From Mactra quadrangularis (lineage: Eukaryota > Mollusca > Bivalvia > Venerida > Mactridae): a DNA stretch of 64,000 nt. The stretch spans positions 30,583,919-30,647,918 of the forward strand of contig CM046306.1 of assembly GCA_025267735.1 (NCBI GenBank). The letters are read 5' to 3'. Positions 2,882-27,299 of this stretch are shown here, piece after piece. The position numbers and the translations under genes are program-made. The stretch's first letter is position 1, and every line of letters begins with the position of its first letter. The notes beneath the pieces are model-generated. The model had not been told where the DNA came from. It did not search any database and saw only the letters and a program-made list of their open reading frames with translations.

Positions 2882-5283
2882 CGCTCATATTCAATAAGAT
2901 GGAACATTTAATGTTCCATGAGTTACTGAGTAAATACGAATAGACTGTGAATTGAATTGAAATGCAAAAGTTGTATGCTGTGTGTGGGCATTTGGGACAA
3001 AAAAGATTTTTGAAATATACACAAGTATGTGTTCATACTGGTCTCATAAGTACCCCAAAATGTAACATACGTTACTGTCGCCATCTCAATTTTCTGACTT
3101 TGAGCGCAGACTACGAAGAATAGGCACATAAGGTAGTCTTAATGCACTTGTTTTTTAACACATACAACGTTCCTGTATGTAAGAATAAGATTTTTATCTT
3201 GCTCCTCAGAAATATAAACTTACACACAGCTCTTAAACTTTGTCGCCAAGAGTGTGGAAACATACGTGACCGTGAAAAAGGTCCATTTTTTTAAAATTTC
3301 AAAACGATATTATAATTGTAAAATATATAAAATCATAAGATCAGATATGAATATACATGAAATAGAAACGATTGTCATTAAGTATTCACAGGCATTTCAA
3401 TAATCATCACATTTTACCAAAATTTTCGGGTAGACTTTTAAGAATGAAACATACGTGACCATGGTTTTTCAACTAATGGTAAATATCTTAGTTGAATTAA
3501 TATTTTCTAATTAGTCACTCTAATGAACTCTTCATTTTATGATAACTACTTTTGTCATTGCTCAGGATTGTCTAGAGATACTGCTGTCTAAAGTATCAAA
3601 TGTAACATACGTGATGTAACATACGTTACCGTTAAAATGATAAACCGATCTTACAATGTGGCAAAGGGTTAAATGAAGACATTATCTCATTGCAAAATAT
3701 ACGACATCATCAACCAAGCAGAAAAAAACTTGAAATTGCGTGCCTCTCAATGGCGTTGACAAATTAATGAGTCTGAAGATTTTTTTAACCATTGCATGCA
3801 ATGTAAGCATAAAATCCTACATAGCAATACTCAAATAAATGCTTTTTGCAAATTATTTGCTACTTCAATACTTACTAGATGTTAACAAATCTGATTTATT
3901 CGTCCTTTTTCGCTTCTTTTTCAATAAGACATGGTTTTGTGAATTGAAACATACGTTACGTTTGGTAACGTATGTTTCATATGAAATGTATCTTAGTTGA
4001 TGATTGTTAGTTTACTTGTTTCACTATGTTTCGCTTATTTTTTGAAACTTCGAACGTTCAAGTCCTGATTGTTTCTTTTATATCCTGTCTTTAAGTGTAA
4101 AGGAACACAGGACGTCAGTCAAATTCAACAGCAGCGAAAAAACCTTTATAAACATACGTTACCACAGGCTGTTGTAATTCCTGACGACACAGACAACATA
4201 TATCAGAATTCATTTTTGTCAAAGATGAACTAGAATACGTCGCGGAAGATTTTGTTGCAGAACTATTTAAGGGAACATGGCACATTGCTACAAATCGATA
4301 ATGATAAGGAAGCAAACACATCGATCATGAAACAGCGCCAACCTCTCATCCAATGGCAAACCTATGAGGCTGTAATTTGGGTGACAAATGATTTGTTTTA
4401 TGAAATAAGTGTGCCAATACCTAATGGAATGTCTGGGAGAATGTTGCAATGTTTATTTCAATTGTATATTTAAGTGAATTACTATGTGAACTTTAAATAC
4501 GATTTAACTGTTTTGATTTTTTGAGACTAATTCGTAACCTTTTTACCTCTTAATTTTAAATTTGTTTTTACTTAATTTTGAAGGCAAACCTATTAACATT
4601 ATATAGATATGACATAGTACATAGAAAATAGTAAGTGCTACCATTTAAATTTTTAAACTGTTGTACTGGGTGTGACTGATAACACTGGGATATGATAGTT
4701 TAAACAGTGTTGTTGTAACATACGTTACTAACTAGTTATTTCTTTAGACGTTCATGATTATGAATTTTTCAGTGAGTAAAGTATACAAACTATTAAAATG
4801 TATTCAGTAATGTTGATTTTTACGGCCATTGTACTTTAGTTCCCTTTGAACTTTGTTCCAAGTTGGAAAGTCATTGTATCAAGGGTCATTAATCTAGTTT
4901 TGTAATTTGCATACGTTGTTCAAAGATTTAAGACATATTTGAGCAATTTTGTGTTCTGAATTTATCGTTTTGAAGTATGTATTTCAAGTACGATCCCCTT
5001 GCCTTCTTATAATTGCTTAAATCATAGACAAACATACAAAACCAGACCAAGAATATGCGTTTTATTAGCGTGTTCCGTAAAGAAACATACGTTACTATAG
5101 AAAATATGTGCTTGTATTCAAATATGTGTAAAATTTTATTTAGTCCGAGATTGTTCAAACCCTTGCATAATATCAAGCCTCATACATACAGCAACTTGTA
5201 AAATCAGTCAAAACAAAAATTGACAGAACTTTATTTTTTGCATTTTTCAAATCTTAATTGTCCCGTCTTATTGAATATCAGCG
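2882..5283 (+). mobile_element. E1: 2.4 kb TIR element with ~185 bp-periodic motif array
   Basis: The ends are 27 bp inverted repeats beginning CGCT-ATATTCAATAAGA (2882-2908 and 5257-5283; 23 of 27 match). TATA flanks both ends (2878-2881 and 5284-5287) and is a candidate 4 bp target duplication. Identity continues for three more bases outside (cat/atg), so the boundary could shift slightly. Inside are ten copies of G(T/A)AACATACGT(T/G)A(C), mostly spaced by about 185 bp or multiples of it. No long coding frame: open frames on the minus strand (2923-3129, 4115-4321, 4928-5176) all read VTYV through the motif, but they are short and unlike any family I know. Probably a non-autonomous DNA transposon; superfamily not assigned. 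Confidence 0.75.
3062..5095 (+). repeat. Dispersed GTAACATACGTTAC motif array of E1
   Basis: Copies start at 3062, 3257, 3446, 3602, 3616, 3946, 3965 (inverted), 4149, 4715 and 5082. A degenerate copy (gcatacgttgtt) is at 4909. The best copies are dyads, GTAAC-N4-GTTAC, as expected of a dimeric protein-binding site. 3602/3616 form a head-to-tail doublet. 3946/3965 form an inverted pair with a 5 bp loop. Between copies the DNA shows no obvious repeat. Confidence 0.85.
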
Positions 5284-7029
5284 TATAATGAGGTAGTATA
5301 AAATGGTTTTAGTTGATAATGGACAGTTTTCAGAAATCAATGGAGTCAGCTGGTTGAAAGACTAGACACTCACTGTATAGAATAGATCGTGATAATTATT
5401 GTATAATTAAACTCTCTTGGGCAAGGTAACAGTCGCGAGTATTACAATTGACTTATATTGACCAAAAACCCATCCAATTGTTTCGTTTCATTAGTCACAT
5501 TAATATTTTGTCCACAGTTCTGTGTAATTGACATTTATCTAAAAGCGTTCATACAGTTAATTTGAATAGTCACACTGGAAATATACTTTTATATTGCTTT
5601 GAGTGACCTAGAAAAATCACAAGAGAGAAAAATGTGCTGAAGGTTTGAATAATTTAGTCAGTTCAAATCGAATAGCATTTTGTTTCGATTAACACACGAT
5701 TGGAGGCGGTACGAGTATTTGGATTATGGTGTTGCTGCCATTTTGAATGAGGTAAATATTATTAAAGTATTTTTAGTATAAAATGTTGTAATTATACCCG
5801 ATATATAAAAGTTTGGATGATTCTAAAATAAACTAAAACAACAGATACTATTCTACAAACTGTTTCTTAGCGTAAAATAGAATTGTCTTCAGTACGAATC
5901 GAAAAGTTTGCGTAAACAGATAAATCTTTTTCTTTCATCTTTTTATAAATCTTGCTTTTTGTATGGAGTAACTATGGCACATAAAAATATAACTCAAGTT
6001 ATAAAACAATCGTGTTCCAACATACAGCCTGTCGTATATATGTAGAGCAACAACTCGTATACGATAATGTGTACGGGGTCGTTTCATTATCAATTGTGTT
6101 CGTTGACAAAACATATTATTGAATTTTAACGAATTTAAGAACTCTAGTGCAACTTTGTATTGAATTTTTAGAATAATTTAAGATAGTTTGGAATGACAAT
6201 GGGCACTTCATGACTAGGAGCCTAATTTACCTTATATATGTTTATCAGATTTTGGTAAATTGATCTGGTATGTTTTGTCTAGGTGTTGTCTATGTTATCT
6301 TCGCTTTTACTTATGTCTTCAAAATGAATAATAATCACATATGTATTTCGAATAATATTTATTTAGATGTTGTTTTTACTAAAATTCATGCAAATAGACG
6401 TTTGTTTAGGTCCTCGTACTTGCAGTGAAAGCAAGTTTAGCTTTGATTTCGGCGTTTGATTCTTAGTAATGGTTTGTCAAGTCTGTCAATTTATCTATTT
6501 TTCCAGAATGAAGTTGTCTGTTTCTTGAAGAAGAGTCAATTATTACTGATAGAAAATAAAGCATGTTCAGGGAAGTAGGTTAGATGCACCGGTGGTCTAC
6601 ATATCTAAATAGGTGTTGATTCCAACACAGGAATTGTAACTCCTGCTTAATTACGCCTAATTTACATGTTTCAGACTGTACAGTGAATTTTGTTCAAAAG
6701 ATGTACATTAGCCATAAGGTTGAAAAGAAAAGAATAACAGTTAATCTGCACTTTAAAGATAAAGATTATATTAAGTATTCTTTTATATACACTGTACATG
6801 TTCAACGGACTTGAACTCTTCTACAGTAAATCGTGATCACCAAAATCACTTTAAAGAAGAGGACACTCGCAGTATTCATTTGCAACTTTGTGAAGTGGAA
6901 CAACCGCAGATACATTTTCTTGCTCAAGGAAAAATAGCACTATTGGTGAAATTCAAACCTGTAACATCTCCCTAACTTAGCACTCACTGTAACATTTGAC
7001 CATTTTACTGCACTGGACACAAAATCAGT
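5284..7029. other. Upstream region of the channel gene
   Basis: AT-rich, with no long reading frame and no clear mobile element. At about 5738-5751, 'attttgaatgag' followed by gtaaat resembles an exon end plus splice donor, so a 5' untranslated exon of the downstream channel gene is possible but unproven. No TATA box can be assigned with confidence. Confidence 0.35.
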
Positions 7030-8340
7030 ATGATAATTTTCAGTGCCCGGAATGTATTGTATGCAACGATACTCGTTGCATGGCTTCCAATGGTATGTCA
7101 TTGTCAGACTATAAAAAATGCTAGTGATTTAATTGATGATTTGTTAACAAGTTACAAGCCTGTACTGAGACCAGTGATAAATCAGTCAGAGACTGTAATT
7201 GTAAATGTATCAATGGAACTATTGTCAATTATTGAATTTGATGAAGTACAAGGAAACCTTCATGTAAATGGATATTTGATATTAGACTGGATTGACCAGA
7301 GAATGACATGGGATCCAACAAGATACAATGGTCTTACGTCAATTATGATCGAAATCAGCAAAGTATGGACGCCATTAATAGTGCATACCAATACTATTAA
7401 AAAGACAGAGAAGATTGGATCAGATGATCCTTGGCAATTGATAAGATATGAATCATCTGGCAAAGCACAGTATTATCCTGGTGGACTATTGTCCTCGTCC
7501 TGTACAGCAGATGTCACTTACTACCCTTTTGATAGTCAAACTTGCTATATACAGTTCACATCTTGGGGAAGTCCATCAACTGAGCTGCAACTGATTCCTG
7601 TAACAGATGGGGTATTAACCAGTATTTTTTCTCCAAATGGTATATGGACTCTAAAATCATCTAAGACGACTTCAGCTTTTGAGAATGCTGCAATTTATAT
7701 TTATCTCACATTAGAACGACAATCTCGATTTGCCATTTTTAATGTAATACTCCCTATTGTTTTCATGACAATTCTAAACACTTTAGTATTTCTTATACCT
7801 ATAGAAAGTGGGGAGAGAATCTCATACAATATTACAATGTTACTGGCTGTAGCTGTGTTTCTTACTTTAGTTGGTGACAACTTACCAAAAACATCAAGTC
7901 CAATGGCAATATTTAGCTACTACCTTGTGACTATTCTTACACTGTGTGTATTATTTGCTGTTGCAAATATAATAAGTTTGCGATGTTATTTTGCAAACGA
8001 TAAAGAAATCCAAGTTCTGTGGAAGCGATTGGTACAAGTTTCGAAATTAAGGATATATCGTAGGCATAAAGCTACAGTTAAGGTGCAGACAAGCACAGAA
8101 TGTGAAAGCAACAAGAGAAAAGATGATCTGTTTATTGTAAAACAACACAAAAACTCGAATCTTCAAACTGAACCTGATGTAGGTGAGGAAACATACACTA
8201 CTCATGATACTGCAACCAGTGATGGCCTTATTTCATGGAAAGAGGTTAGTCATGCCGTCGACAGAATTAGTTTCTTGACCTCAGTTATTTTTACGATTCT
8301 CACAACTACTATATTCTTAGTCGTCATCTATGTCGGTTAA
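7030..8340 (+). CDS. Cys-loop ligand-gated ion channel subunit (nicotinic acetylcholine receptor-like)
   Basis: This 436-residue protein has the full pentameric-channel layout. A hydrophobic signal peptide covers about residues 1-25. The ligand-binding domain has a WxD-x-R-x-xWxP-like stretch (WIDQRMTWDP, 87-96) and a canonical Cys-loop, C158 to C172, with YPFDSQTC. M1 lies at about 233-257, M2 at 262-285, M3 at 294-320, a basic cytoplasmic loop at about 320-410, and M4 at 413-434. The M1-M2 linker SGER and M2 resemble cation-selective nicotinic channels. The loop C region (about 207-222) lacks the adjacent cysteine pair of alpha subunits, so it may be a non-alpha subunit or bind another ligand. 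The whole frame is uninterrupted, so it is one exon or a retrogene-type copy; bivalves are known for expanded receptor families of this kind. The start is the first ATG, just before the signal peptide. An acceptor-like ttttcag inside codons 3-5 leaves open a spliced start. Exact ligand unknown. Confidence 0.93.
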   Translation: MIIFSARNVLYATILVAWLPMVCHCQTIKNASDLIDDLLTSYKPVLRPVINQSETVIVNVSMELLSIIEFDEVQGNLHVNGYLILDWIDQRMTWDPTRYNGLTSIMIEISKVWTPLIVHTNTIKKTEKIGSDDPWQLIRYESSGKAQYYPGGLLSSSCTADVTYYPFDSQTCYIQFTSWGSPSTELQLIPVTDGVLTSIFSPNGIWTLKSSKTTSAFENAAIYIYLTLERQSRFAIFNVILPIVFMTILNTLVFLIPIESGERISYNITMLLAVAVFLTLVGDNLPKTSSPMAIFSYYLVTILTLCVLFAVANIISLRCYFANDKEIQVLWKRLVQVSKLRIYRRHKATVKVQTSTECESNKRKDDLFIVKQHKNSNLQTEPDVGEETYTTHDTATSDGLISWKEVSHAVDRISFLTSVIFTILTTTIFLVVIYVG

Positions 8341-8733
8341 ATGAATAATATATCAATTTGGAACCGCACTAACTCAGAAAAACAAATGACTTAGTATAGA
8401 CGTTGATAAGATGTTGGACCCCGACGTTGGATCAACGTTGGATTTGAAAGGATTTTGGACCTCGGATTCTGCCTTTGATTAAACTGGTTGATTAAACTTT
8501 TTACAAATTTCAATCTACTGTATTTCACTGTCATAATAATGGAGGCGACAATCGTGACAATCGAGACACGAGTATAAAATGCTTACACCAAATACAGTAT
8601 AAGTATTTTCATACAAGTGTTAATTTCTAAGTAAAGACAAAACAATCTTTGTGTTTAACCTAATTTATTCAATTAACTGAAAGTGTAAAGAAAATAATTA
8701 AATCAATTCAAAATACATGTATAATTTTTTGAA

Positions 8734-8739
8734 AATAAA
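8734..8739 (+). promoter_or_regulatory. Candidate polyadenylation signal of the channel gene
   Basis: An AATAAA lies about 395 bp after the stop codon, inside AT-rich DNA where the hexamer is common by chance. It is a plausible but unverified 3' end. Confidence 0.3.
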
Positions 8740-10409
8740 ATTGCAAATAATAATGTATGGGAAACAAGACATTTTCTTTTTAAGATAGAATCGAAGATGC
8801 GAGGATATAGTCTTATTCAATGTTCCTAATTTGAGTCCTAATGATCGCGAAAGTGTTGTCAAATTTCAGCTTGTCCCAAGTGTAACACTTTGAACGTGGC
8901 ATTTTTTTTCTTTTACGTCTAATGTTAGTGTTGTGGTGAGTAGTTTTAATGTATAAATTGATGTGGAAAAAATGTCATGCTTATGTAGTTCAAATTGTCA
9001 TTGGTATTATGGTATATCATGATTTTGTATATTTTTAAAGTACAATTACAAAAGTTTGATTGATATTTTTGGATTTTGGAAAATAAAAAATGGCGCTTTA
9101 AGTAAGCAGTCGCTTCATACGTGAATACATTTTATATTTAACAGAAATATGCTACTTTTCCTTTTTAAAAATAAAATGATGCTTATAAAGATAAAAAAAC
9201 ACCATGCCAACTTTTAAGTGTACAATTGTCTTTTCATTCAAACTAAATGCATATGTACTTAGCTGTTAAAAATTGAAATTGATTTTTGTTTAAGGTTTTG
9301 TAATAACTGAAACTATAGTAAACAAAGTAAACATTCATCTTAAACAAATACTGCAATATATTATATAATACTTTGTATAAAAAAACTCGAATGAAACAGA
9401 TTTATTCAATAAATGAGAAGGACATGCTAAGTTATGCATATCAAGTGGATGGTCGAAAACAAAAGTTAAACATGTTTTTTTGTACGTACGAGTCCTTTTA
9501 TCTATACAAAAAATGGAAATAAAAATATATTAATCAGTTAACTTTCAGAGGATAATTGTAATAAATATATAAAAAACGTTAAATTACTCGATTAGTGAAG
9601 ATATATATCCTAACTTTAATTGTATGTGAAAAGGTACTGTTTTGTACTCATTCAGTAATTCATTAAAGCGTCGATACATTCCTAGAAAGGAGCTTAGAAC
9701 TTATTATCCTCATAAGCCATTTAATAAGGATGGTAAATCTTAACACTGATTATTATTCCTGTCCAACTGCTGACCGTCATATGACCTGTTATATAAAAAG
9801 ATAATCGAGGTGCTTTGAGTACAAATTGAGTTTCGTGAACCACGAATAATGCATTTACAAACCTAGCTAAGACAAAACAGTTTTGATGCATTGTATCAAA
9901 GTTGCAATGTGTTCTCATTTATGTATTGCTTTGCATAAAATAACAACAATCATTGTTTAATCGTTAATAAAATGTAAACGTTATACAAAAGTCAATATAA
10001 ATTTAATCTGACAAAAGACTCTAAGGTGATGTTTTTATTACCTTTCTTTCTATTAAATATAGGAATTCTTTTTAGAGATGAAATGTTCAATAGCCCGACA
10101 ATACAAACGTTCGCGTACTTTTTGGTGCCTGTTTGTGTGGATTGTTTATTCTACTAATTAGTTGATATGCAGATACAGTAAATGCATTTTGACAATTTGA
10201 ATGTATTCTAGTATATTGAGTACTGCATTGATAATAATATAATTTGTATTTATATATTTGGAGTTGAGCTATAAATCAAACCTAAGTAGAATGGACAACT
10301 TCAATGACTTGTATTTGTGTGTTTTATTAATTTCTTAATTATAGGTTCTTGTAAAATGAACCATAAACGCATAGAAAGACTGTTGGGAGAAAACAAGTAA
10401 ACAACAAGA
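8740..10409. other. AT-rich intergenic DNA
   Basis: No supported gene, RNA or mobile element. The 65-codon frame at 9721-9918 (-) has no family signature. Confidence 0.5.
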
Positions 10410-10503
10410 TAGACCAATGTCACAAAGTTTAATTGGATTGTTAGAAGATAATACAAGATAGACCAATGTCACAAAGTTTAATTGGATTGTTAGAAGATAA
10501 TAC
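10410..10503 (+). repeat. Two-copy 47 bp tandem duplication
   Basis: 'atagaccaatgtcacaaag' and the next ~27 bases occur twice in direct succession, from 10410 and 10457, with almost no differences. This implies a recent slippage or replication duplication. Confidence 0.85.
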
Positions 10504-10549
10504 ATCTGTACCAATTGTTCAGATAATACAATATAATACAATGCCATGC

Positions 10550-10747
10550 CATAAAATACAATACGATGCGATACGATACGATACGATACAATACGATACG
10601 ATAAGATAAGACACGACACGACACGACACGACACGACACGACACGACACGACACGACACGATACGATACGATACGATACGATACGATACGATACGATACG
10701 ATACGATACGATACGACACGATACGATACGATACGATACGATACAAT
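10550..10747. repeat. Pentanucleotide microsatellite (CGATA/CGACA)n
   Basis: About 40 units of acgat, with an inner block of acgac (about 10605-10655). Long minus-strand frames reading RIVSY or RVVSC repeats are by-products of the pentamer. It lies at the 3' end of the LINE relic, where the reverse transcriptase frame stops resembling its family. Confidence 0.95.
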
Positions 10748-10784
10748 TCAATACAATATACAAATACGAGTTCCAACAATTTAA

Positions 10785-11712
10785 ACACCAATATTGAAAG
10801 ATTTTATATACAAAGCTGTGTCATTTATATATAAATTTAACATTAGTGGAGAGAAGATAAACCCTTGTCTTAAACCACATTTAATATCAAACCATTCAGT
10901 CATGTACTGATTCACTCTAACACATGATGAAACATTGGAATAAAGACTTTTAATTGCTGGAAGCATATTATCTTCAATACCTAGAGAAAAAAGTTTGGAC
11001 CATAATTTATGTCCGTTAATATATAACAGATTTTTCCCATATCGAGGGTGCAATACCCCTTGTAAAACAGACATTAAAAAGAGATTGAAGATACATAGCT
11101 GTAGCATCAGATTTTAAAACCTCACTAGGTATACCATCAATACCACTGGCCTTACCTAACTTGGCATTATAGATAGCTTTTTTTGACTTCCAATCAGTTA
11201 AATTTTTCATTAAATGATAAAAAGTTTCGTTAACGGAGTCTACAAAAGTTATATCAATAGAATCATTGATATTTGGGTTTTTTAAAAAGAGAGCAAAAGT
11301 CATCCCTCCATTTCTGAAAAATATCTGTTACAGACTCCGAAGCACAACCACCAGTCATTCTTACAGACATTGGAAAGAGCTTAGACATTGAATTGTCTAT
11401 ACCATTTTTACCAAAAGATTTTCAGAAATTATTTGGATCCTTATCACAGCTGTGAACTATTTTATATACCAATAAAACGTTTAGAACGCTGTACCTCACG
11501 GTCAAACTGCTTTCTTATTATATAAATAGATTTCAAATTTCTTTTTATGTTAGCATTCTTACAGGACAACCAGGATCCTTCTGCATCAACAGTTTACTCC
11601 ATAATACAGAAAAATCATCATTCCACCATGGTTTACTGACCCTATGGCGTTTATTTTTGGTACCAATGCTGATAACTTTATGCTGTATAACATCATCCAT
11701 ATTATAAACTTC
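10785..11712 (-). pseudogene. Non-LTR retrotransposon (LINE) reverse transcriptase relic
   Basis: Minus-strand fragments carry LINE hallmarks. Upstream, around 11580-11700, a stretch reads KPWWNDDFSVLW, typical of the linker before the RT domain. The frame 11016-11303 has KASGIDGIPSEVLK and SIWEKSVIY (RT motif region). The frame 10781-11107 has SLYSNVSSCVRVN and GLRQGFIFSPLMLNLYIND, the conserved core near the catalytic site. The frames are shifted, and joining the two would skip the segment normally found between them, so I infer an internal deletion of roughly 90 codons near 11030. The endonuclease and the catalytic FADD-type box are missing. It is dead and cannot move by itself; the clade is not assigned. 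Confidence 0.85.
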
Positions 11713-11827
11713 TTCATTCGTTTAAACGCCTATTTCTATATTACATATTCAATGGCGTTGTACAAAAAGATAAATACATGTAATAACAATAATAAATAAG
11801 TAAAAACCCTCCATCACAAATACATAA

Positions 11828-12032
11828 TGAATATACAATTACACAAAACAAAACAAAATTTATCACACATTATGTTATATAGTGTGTTTGTGTATTTTGT
11901 GTTTTTTGTATGGTTTTTATTGAGTTTTTATATTTCAAGTTTATTGGAACTACATCATTCACATTTCATGATTTTACTTAATTTTACATTTGTTTTTTTT
12001 ATTATTTGATATTGAAAGTTGGTGTCCTGAAC
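11828..12032 (+). repeat. Direct repeat copy 1
   Basis: The words attacacaaaacaaaa, tatttcaagtttattgg and catgattttacttaatttt recur in the same order at 12455-12712. The two copies differ by small insertions and many substitutions. No coding function is evident in the 60-codon frame inside. Confidence 0.7.
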
Positions 12033-12200
12033 CGTATAACATGATGCTACTGTTAACCGAACATGTCCTGAACAGTGTAACATAACGTCATTGATAATTA
12101 AACATTTCCCTACAGGTGTCGAAACATCACCTTTAAGGGGCCCTTAATACATCCCCTAAGGCGTCGAAACATCACCTTTAAAGGGACCCCTTACTTTAAG
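12033..12200 (+). repeat. Short repeats around 'tgtcctgaacagtgtaacat'
   Basis: Here gtcctgaacagtgtaacat is followed by two copies of gtcgaaacatcaccttta (12118 and 12162). The first word returns at about 13066-13085, on the other side of the foldback element, as if one older repeat had been split by later insertions. Confidence 0.55.
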
Positions 12201-12428
12201 CAGTAATGCAGTCATATAAAACATGCTATTATATTTCAAAATAGTGTACACCATGATTCATAAGCCTTATCAATATTACTTTGTGGTCTTAAACCTTATT
12301 CATTCTGATCCACTTTTTTCAAAAACCTTAGACAAAACAAAATCATGCAGCATAAAATCATTGGGAATCTTAGAGAGATTATACTTTTATATGACCAAGA
12401 AAAATGATCATCCTGTATACATAAGTAC

Positions 12429-12441
12429 CCCCCCCCCCCCC
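12429..12441 (+). repeat. Poly-C tract
   Basis: A run of about twelve C's in very AT-rich DNA, immediately upstream of the second direct repeat copy. Confidence 0.9.
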
Positions 12442-12454: not shown

Positions 12455-12712
12455 ACAATTGAATTACACAAAACAAAATAAAATCTATCACACTTTATGT
12501 TATATAGTGCCACCTTAGGACTAACCGCACTGACTGAAAGTCCTTTTCTGAAGTTATTTATGTGTGTTAGTGGTTATGTGTTTAAATAATGTAATGTTTT
12601 TTATTAAGTTTTTATATTTCAAGTTTATTGGAACTTATTATTCACAGTTCATGATTCGACTTAATTTTTACATTCGTTTTTTTATGTGATTACGAAAGTT
12701 TATGTCCTGTAG
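12455..12712 (+). repeat. Direct repeat copy 2
   Basis: Partner of 11828-12032, with the same order of words. It carries an extra stretch of about 80 bp (12510-12600) that is absent from copy 1. Confidence 0.7.
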
Positions 12713-12726
12713 CGTGTTCAATTACA

Positions 12727-13015
12727 CAAAACGTTACTGAACGTTACATAACGATACATTCGGAACTCCTCGGCAATTAGCTGCGAATAACCTAATCTTA
12801 TACACAAATATGCGATCGTTAAGGCAATGAGTGATGTTTCAAAATTTACGGACTAAAAACGAAACATCACTCAATGCCTAAACGATCATATATTTGTTTA
12901 CTTTAACACCTGTAGTTTCAAAATAGCGTCTAAATATATCCGAGATTATTCGCATTGAAGGGCCGAGGAGTTCCGAATGTATCGTTACGGAACGTTTTGT
13001 AACGTTCGCGGTAAC
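12727..13015. mobile_element. Foldback MITE (~290 bp)
   Basis: The outer arms of about 70 bp pair: acgatacattcggaactcct on the left equals the complement of the right end. Inner arms around gaaacatcactcaatgcc pair as well, so nearly the whole element can form one hairpin. A half copy lies at 35150-35283. Confidence 0.85.
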
Positions 13016-13106
13016 TGAACGCAGGGCTGGACAGTATAGCATGTTGCTATTGTTAATCGGACTTGTCCTGAACAGTGTAACATAACGCCACAGTGGTTGT
13101 TAACCA

Positions 13107-14198: not shown

Positions 14199-15398
14199 TC
14201 ATGTCCTTCTTGTTAATTTACGCCACAAATGTTGTACGGCTCTAATAAGTGACGCTCGAAAGTCAGGAATTACAGCCGCGTATAACACTGGATTAATGGC
14301 CGAATTTAAATACAATACAAAGAACAATGTTAAGGAAACGTCCCTGTTCGGCGTACCATTGAAAATATGGTTCCTTGTTAAAACCATGACTACACCAGGT
14401 AGTAAACATACGTTCAAAAAAAGAAGAACAAGTCCTATTAGTACGAACGCTTTTCTTAATCGCCTAGTTGTCAAAGTATCGGGCGATAAACGTGTAATTG
14501 AAGACCTCGCATTTGGAACAGCTGCTGTAGTTAAACACGAAGTGGCTCTAGTAGTCTGAAACATGCTACGAGCATCAGAAGCATTTAGATGTGGAGTAGA
14601 TATTTGTTCTGTTAGTTGTGTCTCATTCTTCCATGTTGATGTTGAAGCATGATTGGAGGGTTTAGTTCCTGTTTCTGATATATTGCTAGCATCTAGTGGT
14701 GTAGATGGCACGTGCAATGAATTAGATGTAACAGTTCTATTTCTGTTTGTTTGAGGTTGTGGACTTACTTTAGATAAAGAACAATATAATGCCACATATA
14801 TAGCGTTTATAAGAACAAGAGGAATTAGAAATGCTCCTCCAAGTGCAATATTCAAAGCTGCATGTACATTATTTCCATATAATGAAAAGACGGTGCAAGT
14901 CGAACTTTTGGCAAAATTAGTTAAATCACTGTATAGGAAAGCAGATGAAGTACAGAGCGTGGTACTTACGAACCAAGGCACAACAAAAGTAGCAATAGTG
15001 ATTGCTTTATTCAAAGACTTTCGAATATGAACCTTTTTAATAGTTAAAAAACGGAACAATGAAATACCGAATATCATTAATAGAGATGCCGACTGTACTG
15101 TTATTGAAAATGTCAGAATAGCTGCACATGCAACGAAGCTGTTTCCAATGCCTTCTGAATCGGTTAGTGACAATAAGATGCTAGCCAGTCCAGCTAACGT
15201 ATCGTTAGCGCTAAGACAAGATATCTGTCGAGAAATTACTTTCATGGTATCACTTTTTCGAAATGTAACAATAATAAATGCTATCAAATTTAGTAATATT
15301 ATAATACATCCTATCGTCTGGAACATAACTGGAGCATATGCTGAAAACTGAGCGGCTTGAGCTCCTCCCGTTTCATTATCTGAATGATTACTACTCAT
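14199..15398 (-). CDS. Class A (rhodopsin-like) G protein-coupled receptor, orphan
   Basis: A 399-residue seven-helix receptor in one uninterrupted frame. The start chosen is the ATG at 15398 (MSSNHSDNET); the frame stays open upstream only by way of a TTG. N-terminal NHS and NET are glycosylation sequons. Residues counted from this ATG: helix 1 has N37; helix 2 D66 (LSAND); helix 3 starts near C91 and ends LFRF, keeping the arginine (R116) but not the usual D/E-R-Y; ECL2 C168 can pair with C91; helix 5 has P193; helix 6 has CLLP, lacking the usual tryptophan; helix 7 ends NPVLY (369-373), followed by a PDFRASL helix 8 and a basic tail. The third intracellular loop is long (about 105 residues), rich in Ser/Thr/Asn. 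The ligand cannot be named. An adrenergic or peptide-receptor annotation by similarity would be weak. Likely an intronless lineage-expanded receptor. Confidence 0.93.
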   Translation of the reverse strand: MSSNHSDNETGGAQAAQFSAYAPVMFQTIGCIIILLNLIAFIIVTFRKSDTMKVISRQISCLSANDTLAGLASILLSLTDSEGIGNSFVACAAILTFSITVQSASLLMIFGISLFRFLTIKKVHIRKSLNKAITIATFVVPWFVSTTLCTSSAFLYSDLTNFAKSSTCTVFSLYGNNVHAALNIALGGAFLIPLVLINAIYVALYCSLSKVSPQPQTNRNRTVTSNSLHVPSTPLDASNISETGTKPSNHASTSTWKNETQLTEQISTPHLNASDARSMFQTTRATSCLTTAAVPNARSSITRLSPDTLTTRRLRKAFVLIGLVLLFLNVCLLPGVVMVLTRNHIFNGTPNRDVSLTLFFVLYLNSAINPVLYAAVIPDFRASLIRAVQHLWRKLTRRT

Positions 15399-15413
15399 TT
15401 TGTAATCTATCAA

Positions 15414-16312: not shown

Positions 16313-16319
16313 GAAAAAG

Positions 16320-17517: not shown

Positions 17518-18091
17518 ATTTATATTTACTTAGACTTTGATCTTACGACTTACGTCAACCGTGTGCCTGTGATTATATATAAATATTTTCACATTGGAAA
17601 GGCGAATATTGTTAATTGATATGAAATTTGACAAACATGTAGTTACATCATCAGGATTATTTACAATAACCTTTTTGTCATTCAGTAATTTGTTATTCTT
17701 AAAGTCTTTTATAACTCATAAAACCGTGGCGGCAAAATTAACAACTGTTTCCCATTAGGACAAAGACTGAACTGACTATAAGAGAAACGAGAGGGTTATG
17801 CCGTAACGGTTCAAATTAATCATTAAATCAGACATCTCGGATGACATAATGATAATCACAAGTTATAATTACAGGTTTTTAATGAAAAATAACAATTTAA
17901 GGGAGACATCTGTAGTAATATTAAAAATTAATTTCAACATGATTGTCAGATTAACCTCCCTTTCAAAAACAAAACTAACAGAATTTGACTCGGTCACATG
18001 TAAAACTCAGTCCCTAACGCGTAGCCTTGAAATAAAACAACTATGCAAATTAATATTACAAAAAAAGCTAACTATAGCACGACCCAAGCAT

Positions 18092-18160
18092 TCTCGTACC
18101 CCGAGGTTATCAAGATTCTCGTATCCAGAATCTTGATAACCTCTGGGTATGAGAATGAGA
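18092..18160. repeat. Near-perfect hairpin (~31 bp arms)
   Basis: Cattctcgtaccccgaggtt ... and aacctctgggtatgagaatg pair over about 31 bases around a loop of about 5. It could be a tiny foldback element or a transcribed hairpin precursor. Two copies of the neighbouring MITE classes have similar design, so a mobile origin is preferred. Confidence 0.75.
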
Positions 18161-18588
18161 TTGGACAGGTTCGAGCATTCCATGAAAATTCGGTTATACT
18201 GTGGATTTTCCTGTATTGGAAAGGTATAATTTTATGAAGAAGTTGTCGGCCTCCTTGATTAGTAGGCCAGTATTGTGCACGTTGCTAAAGTTAGCAAAAA
18301 TATTTTGCTAGCGAAAGTGGCTACAAGTTGCTATTTTGGCTAGCAAATTTTATAGGGAATAGTAAAACATTAATTTAGTCCTAAAACGAGGAACCACAAC
18401 GAGTTATTAAACTTGGAAAGTCCATTTGTCGAGGCCATGTGTCAGGGCTGATATCTAGAGCTAAACCGATTTGGCAGGGTACTGGCATATACCGCGCGAG
18501 AGGTTTGACCTAGGGCTATCACGTGATCATAGTGGCTACCCTTGGAAAATTCCTTTGGCTTGGGCCACATACCACTAGATGTCGGTAT

Positions 18589-18783
18589 TTAGCTTTTTCC
18601 ATAAAAATCAGTACTCTAATGGGTCATGTTCAGGGCTCGAATCTCGAGTTAAAGCTATTATATATTATAGCATCTAGCGATGTTATTTAGCTTTTTCCGT
18701 AAAAATCAGTACTCTAATGGGTCCTGTTCAGGGCTCGAATCTCGAGTTAAAGCTATTATATATTATAGCATCTAGCGATGTTT
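18589..18783 (+). repeat. Two-copy tandem repeat, ~98 bp unit
   Basis: Agctttttcc-taaaaatcag through catctagcgatgtt occurs twice, from about 18591 and 18689, with only two or three substitutions. The unit contains the short palindrome gctcgaatctcgag. Confidence 0.85.
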
Positions 18784-19059
18784 CTATGTGAAACATAGAT
18801 AGCGTCTAAGACGTTGTTGATATAGAGCAGAAACACAGATAGCGTACATGGCATCGTTGATTAAATAGTTAACGAAATAAATAATTCGTCTATTTATCGT
18901 GTTTCAAATTACTGCATGTGTTTGCGCCTCGATTCACCCTTGTTAGAACTAATGGTTAACGTATTTGTTTTTCGATTTGCCCACAGAAATTTCGCATCTG
19001 ATAGGGAATCGTAATAATTTGGGGACGAATTGAGACATTTTTATCATTTACATTAATTC

Positions 19060-19480
19060 CTAACCAACTTTTAATAGTCTGGATTACCTGCCCCTTACCA
19101 CTATCGTTATCGGGTCAGGCAAACCGTAATAATGCCCCCCTTAGTCATTATTCAGGTAACAAAATTTTCGTTTACATTTTCTTAATCTTGCACGATCATT
19201 TGCTGACGATAGTAACTTTAATAGGAGTATATAGGTAATTCGATTTTGTTTGATTGCACGTACATATAGCGAACGATTAACCCAAAAAACATGTCTCAAA
19301 GTGAACACAATTCGGACGAGGATTGGTCTCGTTAGAATTTCGGATACTTTATTTAGCATAAATATAACCGAACAACACAAAAATATAGCCAGTAAAATTC
19401 TTGAACAATGATCATTTGATTTAAACTTGTGTAGTAATGCTCACGTGAAAACAATTATCCAATACCTAATTAATTTCGTA
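19060..19480 (-). repeat. Older dispersed repeat, empty-site copy
   Basis: This block matches, in reverse orientation, 34770-34925 plus 33600-33825. Shared words include accactatcgttatcgggtc, tgctgacgatag, tgattgcac and acaattcggac. In the other copy a TIR element interrupts the match; here the site is uninterrupted (aactttaatagg near 19213-19224). Coding meaning unknown; frames inside are short. Confidence 0.75.
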
Positions 19481-19639
19481 CATAGGGCGCGGCCATTATC
19501 CGACTGGGACCAAGACAAACCAAATTTGGGTGCGAACAAATTGACGACAAATTGTGTGACGTTTTTGCTTGCACAAAATTGTACCCAAAGTAATTGGGCT
19601 GCGATAATTGAGAACGATTTGTGAAATTTTATAAGGGAA

Positions 19640-22600
19640 CGTAATGTATGAGGACGAATTAATTCTAATCGTCCACAAAAATTGCGTACAAAATAAGGAG
19701 CTAAAAGTTTCGAGATCGAATGCTAATATTAAGATCCATCCCTCAGAAATTTCGATTCACCCCACAAGAATTTCGTTTCAAATGAAGAAGTGAAAAGTTC
19801 TGAGGACGCAAAAGCAAATACCGATTCGCTCCTCAGAAAATTCGCACCCAAATAAATGAGCGAGAAGTTCCGAGGACGAACAAAATTTCAGTTCGCTCCT
19901 TAGAAATTTCATACCCAAAAAAGAAGCGGCAGTTTCGAGAACAAATAAATATTTCGATTCGCCCCAATAAAAAATTCGTACCCACCAAAATTAAGGAGCG
20001 AAAACTTCAGAATGAATGAAATTCTGATTAGCCCTGCAGAAATTTTGTAGCCCAAATTGAGTGGTTAAAAGTTTCCAAGACTAAAAGAAATTTCGATTCG
20101 CCCCACAGAAAATTCGTAACCAAATGAAGGAGCGAAAAAAAGACGAGAAAAAAATCAATTTTACTACACATACTGATTCGTACCTAAAGAGATCAAAATT
20201 CCGTGAAAGAAATTTCAATTAGCCCTACAAGAAGTTCGTACCTAAATTAGAAAGCGAAAACTTAAAGGCTAAAAAGAAAATTATGATTCGCCCTACATAA
20301 ATAAAGGGGTGAAAAAGGAAATTTCTATTCGCCCATACATTTTGTACCTTTGTGAAGCGAAAATTCCCGAGGACAAACAAGGCTATTTTGATTCGCCCCA
20401 TATGAAATTCGTACCCAAAATAAGGAGAGAAAAGTTCCGAGGACAAGAAAGAAATTTTTTATTCGCCCCACAGAAATTTCGTACCCCACTAAAGGAGCCA
20501 AAATTCAACTTTAACTTGGATTCACTCCTCAGGAATTTCGTTCCCAAAGAAATATTCCGTGGTAGAAATGATATAATAAATTTCAATTCGCCCAACAAAA
20601 CTTTCGTACCGAAATTAAGGAGCGAAAAGTTCAGAGGACGAAAATTGTACAGTAATTAAGAAACGAAATGTTTAAGAGGACAAAAGAGTTATTCCGATTA
20701 TAGTTTTCGCTTCTTAATCTGGGTACGAAATTTATGGGGCGATTCCTCCTAAAAACCCAAGAACGAAATTGAAATTTCGATTCGCACCACAGAAAATTCG
20801 TTCTTGGATTAAGGAACTAAAGTTCAGAGGACGTTTGATTCGCCCCCACGGACAATTCTTACCCATAAGGGAGTTTTAAGACGAAAAAGGAAATTTCGAT
20901 CACCCCCACAAAAAATTCGTACCCAATAAAGAGCAAAAATTCCAGAATCGAAATTTCCATTATCGTTTTCTGAACTTTTTGCTCCTTTATTTAGGTACGA
21001 AATTTGTAAAACGATTCGAAATTTCTTACATCCTTGGGTACGAAATTCGGTCTCTAGAATTTTCACCGCTTCAGCGATTTTGTAGGGCAAATCGAAATTT
21101 CCTTTCTCGTTCTTGGAACGTTTCGCTCCTTGAGGTACAAATTTCTGTGGTGCGAATTGAAATTTCCGTTCGTCCTCGGGATGTAAACGATAAAAATGTC
21201 TCAATTCGTCCCTAAAGTTCGTTTCCCTATAGAATGCAAAATTTCCCGGTGGGCAAATCGAAAATAAATATATTACTTCGTTCTATACAAGGATGAATCG
21301 AAGTGCAAACACATGCAGAAATTTTGGACACAAACTTCAATTTGCTCCACAAATAATCGAACCCAAATTAAGGAGCGAAGAGTTCAGAGGACGAAAATTG
21401 TACAGTAATTAAGAAACGAAATGTTTCAGAGGACGAAAGTTATTCGATTTTAGTTTTCGCTTCTTTATCTGGGTACGAAATTTATGGGGCGATTCCTCCT
21501 AAAAAAACCAAGAACGAAAATGAAATTTCGATTCGCACCACAGAAAATTCGTTCTTGGATTAAGAAACTAAAGTTCAGAGGACGTTTGATTCGCCCCACG
21601 GACAATTCGTACCCATAAGGGAGCTTTAAGACGAAAAAGGAAATTTTGATTACCCCCACAAAAAATTCGTACCCAATAAAGGGCGAAATATCCAGAATCA
21701 AAATTACCATTATCGTTCTCTGAACTTTTTGCTCCTTTATTTAGGTACGAAATTTGTAAAGCGATTCGAAATTTCTTACATCCTTGGGTACGAAATTCGG
21801 ACTCTAGAATTTTCACTGCTTCAGCGATTTTGTAGGGCAGATCGAAATTTCCTTTCTCGTTCTTGGAACGATTCGCTCCTTGAGGTACAAATTTCTGTGG
21901 TGCGAATTGAAATTTCCGTTCGTCCTCGGGATGTAAACGATAAAAACGTCTCAATTCGTCCCTAAAGTTCGTTTCCCTATAGAATGCAAAAATTCCCAGT
22001 GGGCAAATCGAAAATAAATATATTACTTCGTTCTATACAAGGATGAATCGAAGTGCAAACACATGCAGTGATTTTGGACACAAATTTCAATTTGCTCCAC
22101 AAAAAAATCGAACCCAAATTAAGGAGCGAAAAGTTCAGAGGACGAAAATTGTACAGTAATTAAGAAACGAAATATTTCAGAGGACAAAAAAGTTATTCCG
22201 TTTGTAGTTTTCGCTTCTTAATCTGGGTACGAAATTTATGGGGCGATTCCTCCTAAAAAACCAAGAACAAAAATGAAATTTCGATTACCCGAACAAAAAA
22301 TTCGTACCCAATAAAGAGCGAAAAATCCAGAACCGAAATTTCCATTATCGTTCGTTGAACTTTTTGCTCCTTTATTTAGGTACGAAATTTGTAAGGATTC
22401 GAATTATCTTACATCCTCGGGTACGAAATTCGGTCTCTAGAATTTTTTTGTAGGGCTATTCGAAATTTTCTTTCTCGTTCTTTGAACGTTTCGCTCCTCG
22501 AGGTACGAATTTTTGTGGAGCGATTTGAAATTTTCGTTCGTCCTCTGAATGTGAACGATAAAAATGTCTCAATTCGCCCCTAAAGTTCGTTTCCCTATAG

Positions 22601-22960
22601 AATGCGAAATTTCCAGGTGTGCAAATTGAAAAAAATATACTACTATCTAAACAAGGATGACTTGAGGTGCTAGCAGTAATTTTGAACACAAATTTAAATT
22701 TGCTCCACAAAAATTCGTACCTCAAGGAGCGAAACGTTCCAAGAACGAGAAAGAAAATTCGAACCCAAATTAAGGAGTGAAAAGCTCAGAGGACGAAAAT
22801 TCTATTCGTTTGGATGCGAAAAAACGAGAAATAATGGTGATATTTCGATTTGCCCACCAATTCCATATCTAATTAATTGGTATAGGAAACCTGAAGAACG
22901 AATCGAAACATTTGGATTCACACCTAGAAATTTCGAACCCTTTTTAAGTGGGTACTATAA
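19640..22960. repeat. Complex tandem array (60-70 bp unit) with ~752 bp higher-order repeat
   Basis: The basic unit reads roughly 'gattcgccccacagaaa', 'ttcgtacccaaattaagg', 'agcgaaaagttc', 'gaggacgaaa', in both orientations. From about 20641 a composite unit containing inverted and direct copies repeats at 20641, 21394 and 22145 (periods 753 and 751); the third copy is shortened. Open frames on both strands (for example 20824-21204 and 21568-21954, minus, containing FAPQKFVPQGAKRSKNE) exist because the unit lacks stops. I do not read them as genes. Confidence 0.9.
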
Positions 22961-23535
22961 GTCCAATGCAAATCCAACATTTCCATTCGACTTCAGATAT
23001 ACCCATTTTAATAAATAAAAAACCCAGTCTTTCAAAACATGTAATGGGGCAACAAACATCTCAAGGACAAAATGTCCGAGACACTTGTTAAAAGGGAGCA
23101 GGCCATAATTATATCATGTACAAGAAATTGGACATTCTGTTGATTCTTCAAGTTTTCTGTAAAAACCATTGAACCCATGTAACATCGACCAGCTTGACTG
23201 TTAGATCATTTTGATGAATGTGTTAGTCCAATACAATCTGAAATGAGATGTAAGAATATTTCATGAAAATATAAAATGTCAGAATATAAAACAGCAAAAT
23301 AAAAACATGTAGAACATCTAGGAAATTTTAAGAACACATTTTTATTTGAACGTGTTGTCCAAAAAAGAGCATTTTCTCTCATGGTAATTCTACTTTTGAA
23401 AACTCTGAAATTACTTGGTAAAAAAAAATTACCATCTAATTTTAACATGATTTTAACAATACTTTTACTGTAACAACAAAATTTATATGAACACATTTAA
23501 ACACGATCGAAATGAGTGGGTTACATTTTAACTAT

Positions 23536-24489
23536 GGTGGCATATTATTGCCACCAGATAAGTGTATTATTAACAAATTAATTATGTGGTTAACTAATTT
23601 TAAGTAGTTAATTAATTACGTAACTAGTTAACCACTTAACTAACTAGTTATTTTAAGTAATTATCTAGTTACGTAACTACAAAAAACTACTTATACCAGT
23701 AAGCAATATTTAATAAAGAAACGAAACAAGTAATTGCTTATTTATAAATAGCATTGTTTTGCTCTATTGTAAAACTGATACACAGTCAGACAAACCATCA
23801 AAGCAAAACGCAATTGATTTATAAGTGGTAACAGGTTAATTAGTTACGTTACTAGATAATTACTTTATTTACATGTATTTATTTATTGGAGTTAACGCCG
23901 TGTCAACACAATTTTAGGTCATTTTACGACGTCCAGCACCTAACCTAGCTTTCCTGGACCATTGTCTATAACCAGTACTCACCTACCCTTCCACATGGCC
24001 GGAAACTTCTCCATATTATCTAATCAATGGGGGAAAATCGACATAATTGTCAAATTTTCATTGAAGGGTATAACCTCCGCGGGCGGGATTCGAACCCGCA
24101 CCCCCTCGGGAACGAGTATCCAAATCCCGGCGCGCTACCAACTGCGCTATCAACGGGTTAAATTACTTAATTAACGTTATTTAAAAGGTTACGGTAACTA
24201 GTTTATCACTTAATACTTATCCGCAATATCACTAACTGGAATGCCTTTATCTAATAACGTAACTAGTTTGTCACTTAAGTAACAAGTTTAGTAAGTGATA
24301 CTATATAACTAGTTAACCAACTTCCATTGAGCCGATGAAAAAATACAAAAAAAAGGCAGTTGTAGGCACTAACTTGCATTTATCTCTTGTTATGATCACT
24401 ATTTCATTGAAAAATCTAGTTAGATAGCTAGTTAACTTCTTGATTAACATGTTAATTATAAAGTTATCTAGTGGCAGAAATATGCTACC
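23536..24489. mobile_element. TIR MITE with TAACTAGTTA-type internal motifs (SINE inserted)
   Basis: The left end ggtggcatattattgccacc is itself a small palindrome. The complement of the right end (ggtagcatatttctgccac) matches it, and similarity runs on for about 60 bp (agataa..., attaacat.ttaat, gttaact). The interior is full of taactagtta-like palindromic words. It carries a family B SINE (23880-24160). A relative starts at 35394. Confidence 0.75.
23880..24160 (-). mobile_element. SINE family B copy
   Basis: Inverted copy of the family at 13728: (aaat)n tail at the left as tatttatttattgg, then the body, then the tRNA-like head with B-box gggattcgaaccc and ctaccaactgcgctatc at the right. 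Confidence 0.9.
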
Positions 24490-25069
24490 CGGTTATTCTC
24501 ATTAGATAGGTCCATCTGGGTTTGTGAAAATGTGAAAAATCAACTTCATACAAATCAGTTGTAAATGTTTTGTTCGTAATTATGCATGTATCAGGGATGT
24601 TAATCTAAGTTTCTGGATGCATAACTATCTTATTTCCAGTGCTATGACCATATGAAGAGGATAAGGTGTAAAAATTTGACTATTCGTTTTTGATATCTGA
24701 TGCTGTACCCTCATTGAAGACAATAAAGGTGTATTCACAAATATGTACTTTCGTACCAAATAACTGATTTGGTTTTCAACAAGTATACATATCTTTGTCT
24801 AGAAATCAAAAATACGTCTTGAAAGGCTTATTTGTTAAGCCATTACTCTGCACTGAACTTTGGGAACACTTTTCTATACTAATGATGAAATCAACAGTGT
24901 AATCATTGGTGACAATCCATTTGTTTTCTATTATTTGTGGGTGTCATAATGATAACTTGCTGTTTCTTATACTTAACTTTGATCATTGTCAATACAAAAA
25001 ATGTTCATATTACCTGTGTTAAGCTGCATACTTAGACGGTATGTACATGTAAAATGAACAAGTGCAATG

Positions 25070-27116
25070 GTAACGGAAATTTTAGACTGATTATGTAGGT
25101 TTAAAATATCGTCAAATCCCTCAAGACTTAAATTGAACCAACAAATGTGTTACTTTTAAGTTGCATTTTATTGCTTAGTCACGCAGCTAACATGAATAAA
25201 GCGTAATCTTTTTCATATCATTTGTTCTTCATAGGAAAACTGCTTTATTACTAATATAACAAACACGTCATAAATTTGAAAACTTTAATGAGTTTGATGA
25301 ACAGATGACGACGTTCAGTTGAAACATTAGAAATTAAGACTTTAATTAAGCATAGGGAATATTATAACTCGGTAAAAAGCGCTTATCGGCAAAAAAAACA
25401 ACACCATAGTAACGGAAATTTTGTTCACGGAGAATTCTGCCTCCTGATATTGTTTGATCTCTGCAACAATATTTAACCAAAATGACGTTTATTTTAATTC
25501 AATAAGCTGATGTACTTTTACATATTTATATATTTATATTGAAATATAAAAAGGGTATAGAGGGGGTTCTACGGTGCCTGGATCGCTCACGAGAGCACCA
25601 GATTCTAAAGGCATCTGACTCGCAATCTTTTAACACATTCATATTTAGCTGTAAAAAATTGTGACCTTGAGTTCACAATGCAAAAAAATAAAGCACTGGG
25701 CCATACAATTAAAGAAATTATTTTAAATATTTCTTTACATAACTCCATGTTTATTCTTGTTACCCCTGGGTAGGGCCAATATTTAATCTGATGACCCCTG
25801 GGGAGGCGTCAATATTGACCCCAGTGGCAAAATCTTTGTCGATGACCTTTATTAGTTGCTTTGCGCAGAAGTTCGTAACTATCAGCTTTAAATATTTGGC
25901 AATACTATTTTTTATAGTACATTACATATTTTTATTATATTTTTAAAAAAATTGTTGACGGACGACGGACAAACACCGATCAGAATAGCTAACCTATAAC
26001 AGTTCGTGCTCCGATGAGCTAAAACGTAAAAAATCTGCTATAAGCTATTGTCTAATGGTATTTGGTGAACTTGTTTCAGACTTCTACGAGTCTGTTATTG
26101 ACCTTTGGTAAAAATAGTATTGACTTGAATCCATTTTCAAACTTACCATGCTGTTTTATTACTTACAAAAAAATAAATATCCGTTACCACATAGTAACGG
26201 AAATTTTTTACACTTATAATATCTGAGTGTCGTATTTTTATCATTTCTTGGCGTTAATCAATATTTCAATTTAAAGTCATGTGTCTGCTCGTAGGTAATA
26301 ATTTATAATAAGTACATTATTTTCAGCAAAACATATAACTAACATCGCAATTAGTAAAGGTACTGTAGACTTAAAAAAATCTTCATAATTAAGCTATTTC
26401 TCCATCATTTTACACACTTTATGATGTACTATTTAACCACGAGGCATTTTGAAGTCATAAATGACGTAAATATATGATGTACTGATTGGCGCTGTGTCCC
26501 TGCGAAAAGAAATATGATTTATACACCAAACGTGGTAACGGAAATTTAAATAACGGAAATTTTAAATTCGTATTGAAATTACGTCGTTTGAGCTCTACCG
26601 TGTTATAAACGATGAATTATTCGATCATATATAAACAGTTATAGTCAATTGATGTATCAATCGCCATTATACCATTTCGATGTAACTGGTATTTTCAATA
26701 ATACCGGTAACGGAAATTTTGCTTATTTACTTTTTATTGACCCCTTTCACATTTGTCATTTAAATATTTTTTTATTTCATACATACCACAGGTTTTTGTC
26801 AATTTGTTTAAGAATCAATGGAACTAAGATAACTTTTACACGTTCCTTTTTATTCTGTGTTGATATTTTGCTTTCCAATCAAGCTGTAGTAGATACGGTA
26901 TCGGAAATTTTATGAAAAGTATAAAATCTGGCGACATGCACTCTGCATTAGATATTTAAAATATGTCTGACTTACTGTTTTATGGAGCCTTTTAAATACA
27001 AATTTCAATCGATTACCAATGTATATGCATGCAAATTTAACTCTTTCAGTGATCGTGTTCTCTGCAATTTTATTGCAAACAACACAGGGGTGGACTGGCG
27101 ACAGTAACGGAAATTT
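25070..27116 (+). repeat. Dispersed GTAACGGAAATTT motif array of E2
   Basis: Copies start at 25070, 25409, 26194, 26535, 26550 (lacking the first G), 26707, 26898 (gtatcgg variant) and 27104; a partial inverted partner (ccgttac) lies at 26181-26187. The 26535/26550 pair is head to tail. 26181/26194 is an inverted pair. Confidence 0.85.
25556..26043 (+). mobile_element. Dispersed molluscan-type repeat inserted in E2
   Basis: It begins near gggttctacggtgcctgg. It contains two related words (gttacccctgggtagggcc and gatgacccctggggagg) and ends with ttgacggacgacggacaa, caccgatcagaatagct and gagctaaaacg. Such 'gacgg' tails followed by a gctca-type end are common in bivalve repeats. Ends are approximate, and E2 motif spacing is stretched across it, which fits an insertion. 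Confidence 0.6.
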
Positions 27117-27299
27117 AAAATAAGGGTCTAAAATGGTGGTTACGACTTTATTAATAGTCCGATTTTTGTCATTTTTATGCACAATCATTGGACATCTATT
27201 AGGCAATGGACGAAATACTAAAAAGTATTTTCTTACTTACTAACATTGAGTTATGTATTATTTTGTCCGATGGACCTATCTATTGAGAATGACCGTACC

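Follow-up and report, generated by a model that had tools for sequence, protein, structure and literature searches.

Related transposons of Mactra quadrangularis share the layout of a 12-bp site array in which each family carries a private half-site

The stretch analyzed here, referred to as the window, comprises 64,000 base pairs (bp) of the bivalve Mactra quadrangularis (contig CM046306.1, positions 30,583,919 to 30,647,918). It contains two related transposable elements, E1 and E2, at exactly the coordinates assigned to them by the original prediction, a reading of the letters without database searches. E1 occupies 2882-5283 on the plus strand (2402 bp), carries the terminal inverted repeat (TIR) CGCTSATATTCAATAAGA at both ends and is flanked by a TATA target duplication (2878-2881 and 5284-5287). 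E2 occupies 24490-27295 and is read on the minus strand (2806 bp); its TIR is CGGTYATTCTCAWTAGATAG at both ends, and its target duplication is TACC on the plus strand (24486-24489 and 27296-27299). No open reading frame of at least 120 amino acids was found in either element, and the observed/expected CpG ratio is 0.91 in E1 and 1.02 in E2, compared with 0.70 for the window. Both elements are non-autonomous and belong to a single group of DDE/D DNA transposons, characterized by inverted repeats that start with CG and by 4-bp duplications.

Both elements hold repeated copies of a 12-bp motif, AACATACGTTAC at ten sites of E1 and AATTTCCGTTAC at nine sites of E2. From its left end, E1 presents site 1 (3064-3075), sites 2 and 3 (3259-3270 and 3448-3459, both reading AACATACGTGAC), a head-to-tail doublet at 3604-3629 (3604-3615, AACATACGTGAT; 3618-3629, AACATACGTTAC) and an inverted pair at 3948-3976 (3948-3959 on the plus and 3965-3976 on the minus strand), followed by plus-strand sites at 4151-4162, 4717-4728 and 5084-5095, which lie 1121, 555 and 188 bp from the right end. 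On the minus strand, E2 likewise presents site 1 (27104-27115), site 2 (26898-26909, AATTTCCGATAC), site 3 (26707-26718), a head-to-tail doublet at 26535-26561 (26550-26561, AATTTCCGTTAT; 26535-26546, AATTTCCGTTAC) and an inverted pair at 26176-26205 (26194-26205 on the minus strand; 26176-26187 on the plus strand, AATATCCGTTAC), followed by minus-strand sites at 25409-25420 and 25070-25081, 919 and 580 bp from its right end. Once tandem arrays had been masked by hand, no dispersed 8- to 11-mers in the window clustered more strongly than the two motifs; a lone ACATACGTTAC at 62632-62642 lies outside any array. As 12-mers the motifs agree at 9 of 12 positions and differ at positions 3, 4 and 6, which is a wider agreement than the CGTTAC originally taken to be their only common part. 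The claim that all sites of an element share one motif holds for nearly every copy, and several sites in both elements are off-consensus: site 2 in each (GTGAC in E1, GATAC in E2), site 3 of E1 (GTGAC) and the inverted copy in E2 (AATATC). In both elements the first copy of the doublet ends in T.

The arrangement of these sites is common to the two elements over the first seven sites. Counted from the left end, they start at 182, 377, 566, 722, 736, 1066 and 1083 in E1 and at 180, 386, 577, 734, 749, 1090 and 1108 in E2 (the last inverted in each), with gaps of 182, 195, 189, 156, 14, 330 and 17 bp and of 180, 206, 191, 157, 15, 341 and 18 bp. The summed gap difference of 29 bp was matched by 1 of 200,000 permutations of the gaps and by none of 200,000 uniform placements, and chance is opposed as an explanation by these two comparisons, the cluster scan of the window and the four-family comparison given below. 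To the right of the inverted pair the predicted common layout does not extend as such, since sites of E1 and E2 have no one-to-one match there; measured from the right end, some of their positions roughly coincide, E2 has no site near 200, and strict colinearity on this side was rejected. Of the non-motif words said to match in place, TGTCGCCA is a real second box. It stands in E1 at 3076-3083 and 3241-3248 on the plus strand (offsets 194 and 359) and in E2 at 27096-27103 and 26929-26936 on the minus strand (offsets 192 and 359). TGAAGATTTTTTTAA, which is common to E1 and E2, was rejected as a conserved word, being inexact in the E1 copies L011 and L013 and between the two family consensus sequences.

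Copies were sought in the window's own assembly (979 Mb). ACATACGTKAC occurs 2985 times in the genome, compared with 1800 for its reversed control, and CGTTACTGTCGCCA, the site 1 core with its adjoining box, 316 times compared with 1 for the control. Thirty loci cut out by means of CGTTACTGTCGCCA comprised 22 of E2 type, 7 of E1 type and 1 of a new family, F4 (L043, in longer form L056), which has CATGTTCGTTAC at the same places. A further family, F3, was found at L014 in a cluster of the E1 motif, with the motif TACATACGTTAC, the TIR CGCCCAAAATCACTAA and the duplication TACG. Together with F5 and F6, described below, the genome holds four families beyond E1 and E2. Copies of E1 include L011, L013 and L070, and copies of E2 are found among L057-L075; L064 is an E1-type copy internally deleted to 1337 bp that retains its two TIRs and, flanking them, an exact 4-bp duplication. 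With TIR strings taken from members of the set itself, both TIRs were present in 22 of 25 elements, and among these the 4-bp duplication was exact in 14, had one mismatch in 3 and more mismatches in 5. The duplicated sequences vary (TATA, GGTA, TTTA, ATTA, TACG, ATGA, TACA, TAAT, TAAA, AATT, TTCA, ATGT, and TTAA once). One internal segment of E2 had been considered as a recent nested insert; of the 15 E2-type copies that have both bounding sites, 13 show a gap of 728-781 bp across it and the other two gaps of 643 and 1592 bp, and because its length is largely kept across copies, we assign the segment to the family.

The left-side layout extends to F3, with site starts at 182, 378, 570, 728, 743, 1062 and 1079, and to F4, at 184, 390, 581, 738, 753, 1081 and 1099 (the last inverted in each). 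The summed disagreement of the four families is 145 bp, whereas the minimum was 1323 in 100,000 permutations and 1965 in 100,000 uniform placements. Of the 42 pairwise gap differences, 33 are at most 4 bp and 9 measure 9-13 or 22 bp, which corresponds to roughly one or two turns of DNA, and yet the sequence between the sites has no clear similarity across families (mean z 0.37, range -1.68 to 2.31 in 30 comparisons). Distances from the right end are 203, 580, 927 and 1098 bp in F3 and 202, 563, 709, 730 and others in F4. When the gap to the second pair is included, the sorted steps larger than 4 bp are 10, 9, 11, 11 and 10 bp. This pattern, noticed afterwards and in few steps, suggests a tolerance of whole helical turns in the spacing; the associated value of 0.002 depends on a cut-off chosen with the data already in view and does not amount to a fair test. 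The second box reads TGACGCCA in both copies of F3 (at 194 and 361), while F4 has TGTCGCCA at 196, TGTCGCCG at 31 and none near 360, so a second word may be switching together as well, besides the 12-bp site. As a separate observation, the distances between sites, about 155-205 bp or multiples of that length, and between the two TGWCGCCA boxes, 165-167 bp, resemble nucleosome spacing.

Each of the six families has a private half (AACATA, AATTTC, TACATA, CATGTT, TATCTA or AACCAT), followed in every case by CGTTAC. Across 58 loci (23 of E1, 30 of E2 and 2 of F4 type, and one each of F3, F5 and F6), the half matches that of the site's own family exactly at 338 sites (up to one mismatch being allowed in the core) and that of another family at none. 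Because these loci fall into six families, they represent about five independent switches and not 58. Most loci were chosen by sequence related to the sites: the E1 motif served for L010-L025 (from the places listed on contig C1), CGTTACTGTCGCCA for L026-L055 and L056-L075, and KCGTTACTGTCGCCA for L076-L079 (4 of 7 matches); only L080 and L081 were chosen independently of the motif. The count omits 16 of L026-L055, whose places are covered again by longer loci, and L001-L009. Among the latter, L003-L006 lie within L021, and L002, L007, L008 and L009 are matches to the E1 motif off the layout, L002 having three near-copies besides its match. L001, a contig from a viral collection with an E1-type doublet, was rejected: by our estimate about one such match is expected by chance in that collection, the contig has only 4 matches at up to two mismatches, and two scans of viral contigs gave nothing beyond it.

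When one mismatch is allowed in the half, foreign-looking sites appear in 10 of 38 elements. They are E2-like in L010, L012, L015, L016 and L017 (one each) and L020 (two), F4-like in L013 and L064, and E1-like in L067 and L074. L078 is a chimera in which an F4-like left end and site 1 (CATGATCGTTAC) are joined, at site 1 and CGTTACTGTCGCCA, to an E2 body with site 2 (AATTTCCGATAC); it is degenerate, with a deletion from site 3 onward. Aligned by position, the genome copies thus bear out the original prediction that each family has a motif of its own at the positions held in common, and mixing of motifs within an element, named there as contrary evidence, is absent among exact halves and present in the joining of two lineages in L078.

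The sites also change less than their surroundings. Between two subfamilies of E2, 1 of 108 positions differs inside sites, compared with 345 of 1945 (17.7%) outside (Fisher p = 4.5e-8), and 7 of the 13 identical runs of at least 18 bp contain sites. A weaker bias separates E1 from a group that we call fam2 (L010, L012 and L015-L024), with 6 of 112 positions differing inside and 260 of 1900 outside (p = 0.009); in five of the six in-site differences fam2 departs from the motif, and the sixth falls where E1 is also off-consensus. No CG-type TIR was found in the fam2 copies. Those of them that were compared with L018 have tandem repeats of about 180 bp on the right, except for L024. In fam2 and L025, which we group beside it, an E1-like array with decaying sites lies within a larger repeat without CG-type ends. 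Perhaps the fam2 array was captured by another mobile element; oyster Helentrons are described as carrying satellite-like repeats (PMC7492417). From this one comparison, the sites may be kept only where CG-type ends are kept.

A transposase-like gene piece sits between the left and right arrays of F3, itself a deletion derivative, and pieces of this gene are its only long conserved coding sequence there. Relatives of the piece are modeled as a DDE/D integrase/transposase core, with the predicted RNase H-like catalytic fold of cut-and-paste DDE/D transposons. In the best 50 rows of a structure comparison, Mos1 and Metnase were the sole eukaryotic transposases listed, and the absence of other transposases from these rows carries no meaning. 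A Pfam search with the transposase pieces gave nothing above the cut-off, and a sequence search of the PDB gave no useful match. The piece has 124 matches in the genome, and the regions upstream of two of them (581 and 501 bp) were read, both loci having been chosen by the gene and not by the motif, with the positions of inverted pairs upstream of the open frames estimated before the sequence was fetched. Both loci have inverted pairs at the expected spacing and new private halves. At F5 (contig C9, 48% identical), TATCTACGTTAC and TATCTACGTGAT are inverted with a spacing of 17, and 346 bp further on stand TATCTACGTTAC and TATATACGTTAT, then ATGGGGAAATCACGG, whose ATG, that of a conserved MGK start, stands 43 bp beyond the first base of the last site. 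At F6 (contig C16, 44% identical), AACCATCGTTAC is inverted with a spacing of 18, and AACCTTCGTTAC and AACCATCGTTAC follow in one direction 358 bp further on. The equivalent interval is 335 bp in F3 and 348 bp in F4. Because they were picked by gene, these two loci are the strongest tie between the array and the putative transposase. A Dreissena relative, P0048, begins with MGKSWVEIQKAYRERQK, which resembles the MGKSRAQ downstream of the F5 array, and runs by eye into basic and probably coiled-coil stretches, a candidate DNA-binding part. Taken by themselves, the closest transposase relatives point to a bivalve as the probable host. Separately, matches of about 34% identity lie in frames of 856 amino acids, many nearly identical, and matches of 30% share the same seven internal stops, as if two further transposase families had recently multiplied.

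Elsewhere in the window there are satellite-like tandem arrays at 46703-48426 and 49882-50233 (51-bp unit), 60327-61471 (21 bp) and 29429-30539 (about 197/327 bp). Two long open reading frames, 7030-8340 and 14199-15413, resemble by eye a Cys-loop receptor and a seven-helix receptor. Weak minus-strand matches to transfer RNA (tRNA) at 24076-24156 and 32792-32857 are possibly tRNA-derived short interspersed elements, and a short inverted-repeat element at 12703-13033 holds CGTTACTGAACGTTAC and CGATAC words in its arms.

Kolobok and piggyBac elements duplicate TTAA, VANDAL elements are of the Mutator kind, and Sola elements combine a 4-bp duplication with a DDD/E-type transposase; we know of no comparable site arrays in Sola. 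The present families have the TIRs and fixed-length duplications of cut-and-paste DDE/D transposons (22 of 25 elements with both TIRs). Their duplications vary, unlike those of Kolobok and piggyBac; ends that start with CG and 4-bp duplications separate them from CACTA; and, doublet and inverted pairs aside, the sites hold fixed places with mostly 150-340 bp between them, unlike the tandem repeats of VANDAL. The 4-bp duplication and the predicted DDE/D core make Sola (PMC10294476, PMC4455052) a candidate superfamily; it is reported from bivalves, with Sola1 elements averaging about 5.4 kb (PMC10294476). Motifs that switch together are already known, and the original prediction went too far in knowing of no family with such behavior, for VANDAL and CACTA are partial precedents. 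In Arabidopsis, related VANDAL transposons of one genome have differing short motifs, repeated in tandem in non-coding parts, which change together with the related, element-encoded VANC proteins that read them (PMC5735166). Here, in contrast, the sites hold their position and spacing, one half of each is constant, and TIRs and 4-bp duplications are present. In CACTA (En/Spm) elements, a TNPA-type protein of the element binds many direct and inverted copies of a short subterminal motif, and in soybean the motifs of two subfamilies differ and share a part, for which coevolution with the binding protein was suggested (PMC2613891). Those elements differ from ours in their CACTA ends, 3-bp duplication and subterminal motifs, as against CG ends, 4-bp duplications and dispersed motifs whose layout is kept between families. 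For a layout outlasting sequence, combined with a constant half and a re-coded half in six families, we saw no precedent in either of these systems or in our searches of open-licence papers, of which the one on transposase/site coevolution turned up only unrelated work.

At the level of sequence, the families combine inverted repeats and 4-bp duplications with a dispersed array of 12-bp sites at kept places and one private half per family; the sites are more conserved than their surroundings, and a transposase-like gene adjoins the array in three families. We favor, with moderate confidence, the explanation that a protein encoded by the elements, most likely the transposase, binds an array of fixed geometry, and that half of this protein's specificity has shifted repeatedly. 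A transposase of about 850-890 amino acids would read the constant core CGTTAC and the changeable half with different parts of the protein, and would assemble on the array as a multi-site complex whose geometry is fixed and helically phased. Such loading might pair the two ends, control the element's own promoter (compare the last site of F5, 43 bp before the ATG), or both. When the protein of a lineage shifted its preferred half, only elements whose sites followed suit would still be moved, and each lineage would thereby come to be served by its own transposase alone and be rid of the parasites of the others. More tentatively, and in our judgment still short of probable, the sites may embody a modular code, in which a constant CGTTAC contact is coupled to a re-programmable half that was re-coded at least five times, leaving the lineages mutually exclusive and a geometry that outlives alignable sequence. 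Several points weigh against a transposase that reads these arrays. Some 10-13 sites over 2-3.5 kb would be unusual for a transposase by itself; the upstream sample consists of two of the 124 gene matches; no autonomous partner of E1 or E2 was identified; a Foldseek search gave no match at E <= 0.001; and L078 unites two lineages in one element.

The main rival is a separate regulator, encoded by the elements and comparable to VANC, that reads the array and keeps the element unsilenced or transcribed. VANC proteins are described as binding short motifs that are private to a family and lie in the non-coding sequence of VANDAL elements (PMC5735166), sites here occur throughout the non-coding parts and not just near the ends, and the raised CpG of E1 and E2 looks as if unworn by methylation, or may reflect mere youth. 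We nevertheless consider such a regulator unlikely, given that VANDAL motifs are changing tandem repeats whereas single sites here keep their places and spacing, and that the long conserved coding sequence of F3 consists of transposase-like pieces only, though F3 is a deletion derivative. That non-autonomous copies retain sites while coding for nothing would suit a host DNA-binding protein exploited by the elements; this is improbable, as a single factor would not require six private halves in one genome, each kept at every, or almost every, site of an element. Gene conversion or other copying within a lineage, with no change of recognizer, could explain why the sites of an element are nearly identical as their surroundings drift. 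We hold this to be more improbable still, because the flanks of sites are unlike within an element (identity 0.27-0.33, versus 0.30 between elements) and single-position quirks, such as the T-ending first doublet copy, are kept across families; a copied tract would also need to stop at 12 bp every time. Least credible is simple retention from a common ancestor, with the layout a neutral leftover and the motif differences due to drift. The families are surely related by descent, as their TIRs, duplications and layout indicate; however, the sites resist change amid surroundings that differ by 17.7%, most gap differences stay within 4 bp where the flanks no longer align, and independent drift would not bring every site of an element to one and the same new half. 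Between the two explanations originally offered, a factor that changed its specificity is therefore better supported than homogenization, the binding protein itself being putative.

It is a long-standing question how a DNA-binding protein can alter its specificity if some ten sites have to change along with it. If a transposase does read these arrays, a single genome holds at least six outcomes of such a change on a common scaffold. Related transposase genes adjoin the changed sites, so that the residues that set the half could be searched for by comparison and tested by binding, and the families would offer orthogonal pairs of transposase and site. Site geometry could also identify relatives after sequence similarity is lost. 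If true, the system would be the equivalent, among transposons, of a key-and-lock code that shifts.

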